Assembly: GCF_000993805.1 (NCBI RefSeq)
Contig: NZ_CP009961.1
Span: 614,714-678,713 of the forward strand
From: Thermofilum uzonense
GTDB taxonomy: Archaea; Thermoproteota; Thermoprotei; Thermofilales; Thermofilaceae
DNA: 64,000 nt
Direction: 5' to 3'
The translations under genes and the position numbers were made by a program. This document shows, in pieces, positions 43,842 through 46,255 of this stretch. The notes beneath the pieces are model-generated. The model did not search any database. It saw only the letters and a list, made by a program, of their open reading frames with translations, and was not told the DNA's origin. Position 1 is the first letter of the stretch. The number at the start of each line of letters is the position of its first letter.

Positions 43842-44819
43842 TCACCACCTCCTATGAGGAGGCCTAAAGCCGCCTTCCTCGAGGGAGTCCCGCAGCTCGC
43901 GGCCTGTCAGGTAGATAAACACCTCGTTTAGCGTGGGGCGCCTATAAGACACCTCTATTATTTTTAGCCCCTTACTTGAAGCGGCCTCGAATATCCTTGG
44001 CATTGCTGTGGCTGCGTTCTTGACGACTAGCTGCAGGGTGTCCCTTGAGACCTGTTTACAGCTCTCCACGTAGTCGGACTCGATGCACGGGGGAGAAGTT
44101 GTGTTTCCGTCAAGCTTCACGTAGACGATCTCGTTTCCAAGCAATGACTTTAGCTGTTCAGGTGTGCCTTGAGCCTTTATCTGCCCGTGATCCATTATAG
44201 CTATACGCTCGCAGAGCTGGTCAGCCTCGTCCATGTAGTGCGTTGTAAGGAATATGGTCATTCCGTGTTCCTTCTTAATCGCCATTATATAGTCCCATAT
44301 CTTGACGCGTGTCTGGGGATCCAAGCCTATGGTGGGCTCATCCAGGAATAATATATCGGGCTCGTGGAGTAGTGAACGGGCAATTTCAAGCCTTCTCCGC
44401 ATGCCCCCTGAGAAGTACCTTACAAGTTTGTTAGCGTAGGGTTTAAGGTCTACAAAGTCCAGTAGCTGATATATCTTCCTCTTGAGCTCCTCTCCCGAGA
44501 GACCATATAGTCTGCCGTGAATATACATGTTGTCGTAGGCTGTCAGTTGATTGTCTATGCTGGGATCCTGGAAGACTATCCCTATCCTCTTCCTGACCTC
44601 TCCTGGGGACGTGACCACATCATAGCCGGCAACGAAGACCTTTCCGCTAGTGGGTCTTAGGAGCGTTGTAAGAATGTGGATAGTCGTGGTTTTACCGGCG
44701 CCGTTAGGGCCTAGCAGACCGTATATCTCTCCTTGTTTCACCTGGAAGCTTACCTGGTCTACAGCAGTTATATCCTTGAACTTCTTCACGAGATTTTCAA
44801 CCACTATAGCTTCAGACAT
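43842..44819 (-). CDS. ABC transporter ATPase, DrrA type
   Basis: About 325 residues. Walker A GPNGAGKT is at 37-44 (from ATG 44819), the signature FSGGMRRR near 139, Walker B ILFLDEPTIGLD near 160 and the H-loop LTTHYMDEA near 193; a DrrA-like extension follows. Upstream codons up to GTG 44828 are possible starts, but ATG 44819 lies best from GGGTG. The gene overlaps the end of padR by a few bases and is followed after 3 nt by the permease. Confidence 0.93.
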   Translation of the reverse strand: MSEAIVVENLVKKFKDITAVDQVSFQVKQGEIYGLLGPNGAGKTTTIHILTTLLRPTSGKVFVAGYDVVTSPGEVRKRIGIVFQDPSIDNQLTAYDNMYIHGRLYGLSGEELKRKIYQLLDFVDLKPYANKLVRYFSGGMRRRLEIARSLLHEPDILFLDEPTIGLDPQTRVKIWDYIMAIKKEHGMTIFLTTHYMDEADQLCERIAIMDHGQIKAQGTPEQLKSLLGNEIVYVKLDGNTTSPPCIESDYVESCKQVSRDTLQLVVKNAATAMPRIFEAASSKGLKIIEVSYRRPTLNEVFIYLTGRELRDSLEEGGFRPPHRRW

Positions 44820-45288
44820 TTGCATCACCCTTAAGTATGCCTAAAACCCTATACTCAAAATCAAGAACAACCCTCCGCAACTCCTCGAGCTGACTCTCGT
44901 TCAGCCTATCAATATTCTCGACTAGCTCGCCTATAACCCGGAATATGCGAGAGCATCCCATCTCGTTGAACTTCTTGAAGGATTTGGCCAGCCTGAGCGA
45001 CTCTTGTACCTGGGGCTGGTGAGCCTCTAAAAACTCCAGGCCTCTTCGGCTTAACTTATATACCTTGATCCTCCTGCCATCTTTATCAACTTCTTCAGAC
45101 TCGATCAAGCCGTGACGCTCGAGGTGCCTGAGTAGAGGAAAGAAAGCCCCGCTGCTCGGCTTGAAGCCTGTTAAATCCTCAATTTTCCTCATGAGTGCGT
45201 ATGCATACGAGGGGCTCTCTTTGAGCGAGTACAGTATAAGTAGCTTGAGAGCACCGCCATACCTGCCCTTTATTCCGAACTTCCTCAT
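44812..45288 (-). CDS. PadR family transcriptional regulator
   Basis: A 158-residue winged-helix repressor. The DNA-binding part ALKLLILYSLKESPSYAYALMRKIEDLTGFKPSSGAFFPLLRHLERHGLIESE matches PadR. A frame open to GTG 45315 would start inside the promoter, because minus-strand aacatttataaagtt (45316-45330) places transcription near 45298; ATG 45288 is therefore preferred. The palindrome GTCTATAGAC (45304-45313) lies between TATA and the start and is a candidate autoregulatory site. Co-transcribed with the ABC exporter genes. Confidence 0.9.
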   Translation of the reverse strand: MRKFGIKGRYGGALKLLILYSLKESPSYAYALMRKIEDLTGFKPSSGAFFPLLRHLERHGLIESEEVDKDGRRIKVYKLSRRGLEFLEAHQPQVQESLRLAKSFKKFNEMGCSRIFRVIGELVENIDRLNESQLEELRRVVLDFEYRVLGILKGDANV

Positions 45289-45303
45289 ATATGTCTGTAG
45301 ACA

Positions 45304-45330
45304 GTCTATAGACACAACTTTATAAATGTT
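45304..45330 (-). promoter_or_regulatory. PadR operon promoter with palindrome
   Basis: A TATA box (minus strand aacatttataaagtt, 45316-45330) is directly followed by the perfect ten-base palindrome GTCTATAGAC at 45304-45313, where a bound regulator would block initiation. A looser inverted repeat GTCA-n6-TGAC lies at 45345-45358. Confidence 0.5.
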
Positions 45331-45364: not shown

Positions 45365-45378
45365 ATATATTTATAATG
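45365..45378 (+). promoter_or_regulatory. TATA-like box of the sRNA candidate
   Basis: atatatttataatg is about 25 nt before the sRNA box C region, which predicts initiation near 45397. Confidence 0.5.
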
Positions 45379-45397: not shown

Positions 45398-45458
45398 CTG
45401 GATGATGGGGGTCTGGAGCACTGAAAATCGATGATGAATTCTCCTTAACACCTGACCC
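45398..45458 (+). ncRNA. Candidate C/D box sRNA
   Basis: Box C ATGATGG (45402-45408, one mismatch at the last base), D' CTGA (45421-45424), C' ATGATGA (45431-45437, perfect) and D CTGA (45452-45455) appear in order. The C-D' spacer is 12 nt, the D'-C' gap 6 nt and the C'-D spacer 14 nt, as in archaeal 2'-O-methylation guides. A TATA-like box lies 25 nt upstream and the region has no protein frame. Guide regions would be gtctggagca (before D') and ccttaacac (before D). Target not determined. Confidence 0.6.
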
Positions 45459-45500: not shown

Positions 45501-46145
45501 TTAAGCCTGCTTCCTCCTCTTAAAGATCTCAAGCTCTATCTCGTAAGCCTCCCTTGGGAGTGGCGTAGGCTCGCCAAGGAGGCTCGCGAGTATGTAAGTT
45601 CTCGCAGCCCTCTCCAGGTAAACAAGTGAGTCTATGGCTTCCTCTAGGTTCTTACCCACCGCGAGAGCGCCATGATTCGAGAGTATCACAGCGTTTCTCT
45701 CGCCTAGTGCTTCTACAACGTTCCTTGCAAGCTCATCCGTGCCTGTAACAGCGTAGCGTGCTACTAGAATCTCACCACCAAGGTAGATCACGGTCTCCTC
45801 TAAAATCGGCGGGAGGTTCCTCCTAAGCACTGCGAGAATCGATGCGTTTGGCGAGTGAGCATGTACAACAGCGTTAACGTCTGGTCTAGCCTTGTAGACT
45901 GCGAGGTGTGTTACAGCCTCTACGGAAGGCCTCCCTTGTCCATCCAGGACGTTGAGGTTCCAATCAACAACGAGGACGTCTTCGGGCCTCATCTTCGACT
46001 TTTTGGCCCCGCTAGGAGAAATCAGGAAGACCCCTCTTTTATCAACCCTCATGCTTATGTTTCCACTGTAACCATAGTTTAGGTCCCTCTCTTCGAGAAA
46101 CCTGAAAGCTTCTACAATCTGCTTCCTCTCCGACTCGTAAAGCAT
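45501..46145 (-). CDS. fucA: Class II aldolase, fuculose-phosphate aldolase type
   Basis: A 214-residue zinc aldolase. Conserved SGNISMR (residues 24-30), SPSGAKKSKM near 40, the catalytic Glu region QGRPSVEAVTHLAVYKARPDVNAVVHAHSPNAS with the His ligands, and ILSNHGALAVG near 158 all match the L-fuculose/L-ribulose phosphate group. It would cleave a ketose-1-phosphate to DHAP and an aldehyde. ATG 46145 is chosen; GTG 46154 adds three residues. It is divergent from the micro-ORF and the sugar MFS gene, which hints at linked sugar use. Confidence 0.9.
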   Translation of the reverse strand: MLYESERKQIVEAFRFLEERDLNYGYSGNISMRVDKRGVFLISPSGAKKSKMRPEDVLVVDWNLNVLDGQGRPSVEAVTHLAVYKARPDVNAVVHAHSPNASILAVLRRNLPPILEETVIYLGGEILVARYAVTGTDELARNVVEALGERNAVILSNHGALAVGKNLEEAIDSLVYLERAARTYILASLLGEPTPLPREAYEIELEIFKRRKQA

Positions 46146-46255
46146 TTGCAACACCGTTGTTTCCTACCCGCAAGGAGGTTTTATTGATTGCGACTATAAG
46201 GAGGTAAGGATTCTCATGTTCACTCTAGGAAAAGATTGTTGATCATGCGAGAAGA

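Follow-up and report, generated by a model that had tools for sequence, protein, structure and literature searches.

A predicted stand-alone C/D box sRNA gene of Thermofilum uzonense with a guide for the wobble base of tRNA-Trp

The locus and its box architecture

The window, by which we mean the whole 64-kb stretch of Thermofilum uzonense DNA analysed, contains a compact element on the plus strand in the gap between a PadR-family regulator gene and a class II aldolase-family gene. In window coordinates the locus is organised as follows.

44812-45288, minus strand: PadR-family regulator gene (Pfam PF03551, E 5.7e-15), with the start taken at the ATG at 45288
45370-45376, plus strand: TATA-like box TTTATAA, the putative sRNA promoter, centred about 25 nt before 45398
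45398-45458, plus strand: the C/D box sRNA gene as a whole, with approximate ends, in which GG at 45400-45401 can pair with CC at 45456-45457
45402-45408, plus strand: C box ATGATGG (four-box scan), with one mismatch, at its last base
45409-45420, plus strand: D' guide GGGTCTGGAGCA, of which 45409-45419 pair with tRNA-Trp and 45416 (G) lies opposite C34
45421-45424, plus strand: D' box CTGA (four-box scan)
45431-45437, plus strand: C' box ATGATGA (four-box scan)
45438-45451, plus strand: D guide ATTCTCCTTAACAC, an orphan for which no target was found
45452-45455, plus strand: D box CTGA (four-box scan)
45501-46154, minus strand: class II aldolase-family gene (Pfam PF00596, E 9.2e-56), with its stop at 45501

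The initial annotation placed the element between divergent genes, a description that has to be amended: both protein genes lie on the minus strand, and only the sRNA and the PadR gene diverge. The sRNA is thus head-to-head with the PadR gene and tail-to-tail with the aldolase gene, their 3' ends facing. A TATA-like box had also been proposed about 25 nt upstream of the claimed 5' end, and TTTATAA is present there, at 45370-45376; locus alignment places an AT-rich stretch at the corresponding position upstream in three relatives. The same intergenic region carries two tandem palindromes, GTCTGTAGAC and GTCTATAGAC, at window positions 45293-45313, just 5' of the PadR start and almost unchanged in an alignment of four Thermofilum genomes; they are likely an autoregulatory operator of PadR, preceding a PadR-ABC transporter operon.

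Archaeal C/D box sRNAs carry the C (RUGAUGA), D' (CUGA), C' and D (CUGA) boxes in that order with short spacers between them. The element at 45402-45455 (genome positions 660115-660168) reads ATGATGG-GGGTCTGGAGCA-CTGA-AAATCG-ATGATGA-ATTCTCCTTAACAC-CTGA on the plus strand, so that the four boxes stand in order with spacers of 12, 6 and 14 nt, exactly as had been claimed, and the C box has one mismatch; the GATGAT core of the C box is invariant in an alignment of four syntenic loci. When both strands of the window were scanned for the four boxes, with one mismatch tolerated in C and in C', this element was the sole match; 60 order-3 Markov randomisations scanned in the same way gave none (expected number per window, 0.0). 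No open reading frame of at least 50 amino acids covering the element was found. Its single-strand folding was uninformative (z 0.75), as is expected for C/D box sRNAs.

At the gathering score no Rfam 15 family matches the window; the best weak match is to the C/D family sR23 (RF01138), at 15.4 bits against a cut-off of 45. Such a lack of any match above threshold would suit an accidental run of C/D-like boxes in the AT-rich gap upstream of the PadR gene, with no gene there at all. We consider this extremely unlikely, since no four-box element is expected by chance, one guide matches a specific tRNA with the correct geometry, and the boxes and D' guide are conserved beyond their flanks, at the four syntenic loci as well as more widely in the order.

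The D' guide and its predicted target in tRNA-Trp

Both guides were slid along the 16S, 23S and 5S rRNAs, the tRNA hits, the SRP RNA and the RNase P RNA of the T. uzonense genome, a target set of 10,064 nt in which a Watson-Crick pair was required at the +5 base; the tRNA part of this set was incomplete, consisting of 40 tRNA hits, two of them weak. The D' guide, GGGTCTGGAGC, forms 11 uninterrupted Watson-Crick pairs with GCTCCAGACCC of tRNA-Trp(CCA). The pairing region is the anticodon loop and stem, and by the sequence rule the D'+5 base falls on the wobble C34, the first base of the anticodon. This guide thus pairs with a stable RNA across the +5 base, as the C/D class demands. Its runner-up among the stable RNAs searched is a match of 9 bp that includes 2 G-U pairs. 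In a target set of this size about 0.007 such 11-bp matches would be expected, though for this G-rich guide an 11-bp match somewhere was also reached by 2 of 100 shuffles of the same composition. Targets in rRNA were rejected for either guide, as the matches are no better than those of shuffles. A further exact match to the D' guide in the genome, at 114730, has no C/D boxes and appears to be coding.

The target tRNA is encoded at genome positions 1611712-1611804 on the minus strand, and its gene is interrupted by a 19-nt intron at the non-canonical position 30/31. Unspliced, it is labelled Pyl(CTA) by ARAGORN because of this unusual intron, an identity that we reject: once the 19 nt at 30/31 are removed the anticodon stem is perfect, and ARAGORN then calls tRNA-Trp(CCA). 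In the Thermofilum genomes seen, pre-tRNA-Trp introns measure 14-19 nt, and therefore the guide cannot sit within the intron as it does in euryarchaea; the sRNA, at 660115-660168, is encoded apart from the tRNA-Trp gene at 1611712-1611804.

The genome also encodes the protein partners of such an RNA, with adjacent genes for fibrillarin (E 4.1e-100) and Nop5 (Nop, E 8.3e-76) near 1530.6 kb. The assignment of the element to the C/D box sRNA class is thus strongly supported by its architecture, the absence of comparable elements by chance, a tRNA target at the +5 base, its conservation, and the presence of fibrillarin and Nop5 genes. From these sequence comparisons we hypothesize, with a probability of about 0.92, that this is a stand-alone C/D sRNA gene whose D' guide directs formation of Cm34 in tRNA-Trp(CCA) and whose D guide is an orphan. 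The most likely role of the T. uzonense sRNA is to direct methylation at the first base of the tRNA-Trp anticodon. The RNA would be transcribed from the TATA-like box; then, following what is established for archaeal C/D RNPs, L7Ae would most likely bind the C/D and C'/D' kink-turns, and Nop5-fibrillarin would be recruited to the L7Ae-bound sRNA. The D' guide would then pair with the anticodon stem-loop of tRNA-Trp(CCA), placing the +5 base at C34, and fibrillarin would methylate the 2'-OH of this wobble base to give Cm34, a modification believed to limit the anticodon to reading UGG. Cm34 of tRNA-Trp has been reported in S. acidocaldarius, H. volcanii and T. kodakarensis (PMC7668247).

The D guide

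The initial annotation held that the sRNA has two functional guides and proposed pairing both of them to the rRNAs and tRNAs of the organism. Half of this expectation is borne out, in the 11-bp match of the D' guide that targets C34 of tRNA-Trp; the D guide, by comparison, pairs no better than its shuffles and is not conserved. Its best matches are 7 bp of Watson-Crick pairing in 16S and 23S rRNA, or 10 bp with three G-U pairs, and no target above chance was found in the stable RNAs searched, 53 of 100 shuffled guides being equally good. Nor does it match tRNA-Trp. The D guides of two other genomes (G004 and G022) do match position 13 of tRNAs, but no better than shuffles do.

A true dual guide, with D' acting on tRNA-Trp C34 and D methylating 16S U1051 or 23S U1154 through a short duplex, would draw on the 7-bp matches, which run through the +5 base at both of these sites. 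Published practice asks for some nine consecutive pairs (PMC4644070), however, the 16S and 23S matches are no better than those of shuffled guides, and the D guide is not conserved in the syntenic orthologues; this arrangement is accordingly improbable in our view. We give even less credence to a second function for the D guide, the regulation of an mRNA or other RNA through base pairing. One exact 12-base complement of the D guide does occur elsewhere in the genome, at 389735-389746, but in 3.2 Mb of strand chance alone should yield about 0.2 exact 12-mer matches, and conservation of the guide, again, is lacking.

We therefore call the D guide of T. uzonense an orphan on sequence grounds, because shuffles match as well and because orphan guides have precedents: a survey found one-third of archaeal C/D sRNAs to be without rRNA targets (PMC4644070), and among tRNA-directed sRNAs of Pyrobaculum one guide acts on a tRNA and the other lacks a target (PMC7994747). 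The combination of one tRNA guide with one orphan guide is shared by those Pyrobaculum sRNAs and the T. uzonense sRNA. Membership of the C/D class does not require a target for the second guide.

Conservation and relation to known guides

The sRNA lies head-to-head with a PadR gene in four Thermofilum genomes (G000, G001, G005 and G006), and the PadR neighbours of the syntenic loci are 52.9-55.3% identical to the PadR of the window. Alignment of the four loci shows GATGAT, GGTCTGGAGC, CTGA and most of C' to be invariant, and the D guide to be almost without invariant columns: the D' guides are identical at 10-11 of 11 positions, the D guides at 2-8 of 10-11. This pattern of a conserved D' guide beside a divergent D guide fits selection on the putative tRNA-Trp guide alone, and the four loci provide a clean case of a C/D sRNA in which one guide is kept as the other diverges.

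Among Thermofilales, the D' guide plus D' box was found with at most one mismatch in 26 of 27 genomes, some of these matches being clearly coding or due to chance; by eye, the C, D' and usually C' boxes are in place in about 20 of the 27. A stricter pattern (D' guide, D' box and C' box, with the reversed pattern as control) was present in 13 of 21 Thermofilales genomes and in 11 of 16 genomes of another family of the same class (f13), and in none of the 16 genomes of a further family (f9). Elsewhere in the phylum it occurred in 8 genomes, which is at background level given that the reversed control occurred in 8 of 397. A loose-pattern scan of named genomes was set aside, as the matches listed were mostly bacterial chance matches. 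Several relatives have a degenerate D box or C box. These data lead us to suggest, tentatively, that throughout Thermofilales and a sister family a stand-alone sRNA acting in trans might guide methylation of tRNA-Trp C34, with only the D' half under selection; the D half would drift freely and, in some lineages, lack a recognisable D box or overlap the start of a protein gene, so that the family may work as half-guides.

The sRNA is an addition to the well-known C/D box class, not a new kind of RNA. Stand-alone C/D sRNAs with tRNA targets in Pyrobaculum, Sulfolobus and Pyrococcus have the same box order and spacing. The sR23 family (RF01138) is likewise a C/D box sRNA, and its D' guide also contains UCUGGAGC in an alignment, but its +5 position would move to C32, owing to two additional bases in front of D'. 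In euryarchaea (Haloferax volcanii; sR50 of Pyrococcus), a C/D guide in the pre-tRNA-Trp intron methylates C34 and also U39 (PMC7994747). The T. uzonense sRNA resembles it in the predicted use of a C/D RNP for 2'-O-methylation of tRNA-Trp C34; however, the euryarchaeal guide is the intron of its own target and acts on U39 too, whereas in T. uzonense the guide has a gene of its own, the tRNA-Trp intron has 19 nt, and the second guide does not match tRNA-Trp. Methylation of the tRNA-Trp wobble base, intron-guided in euryarchaea, may thus have a separate guide gene here, and an unannotated RNA gene of a crenarchaeal order is given a precise predicted target. The Thermofilales family was found neither in Rfam 15 at threshold nor in the literature searched, a partial search that leaves room for an earlier listing.

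Further observations concern individual relatives. In some Thermofilaceae (L286 and L289) the homologous sRNA apparently has a C' box overlapping the start of a small open reading frame, whose peptide resembles MMRAETVRVSIRLTAEQY; a D box was not found at the normal distance. In several f13 genomes (L299-L302) the stretch directly following the C' box shows strong conservation (ACTCATTAA..CTTATTCTT), and is perhaps the end of an opposing gene. One relative in f13 (L298, G269) carries a complete C/D sRNA with a D' guide, CCCTCTGGAGAG, that is changed on both flanks of TCTGGAG; this guide predicts CTCTCCAGAGGG in the tRNA-Trp of G269, with a covarying anticodon stem.
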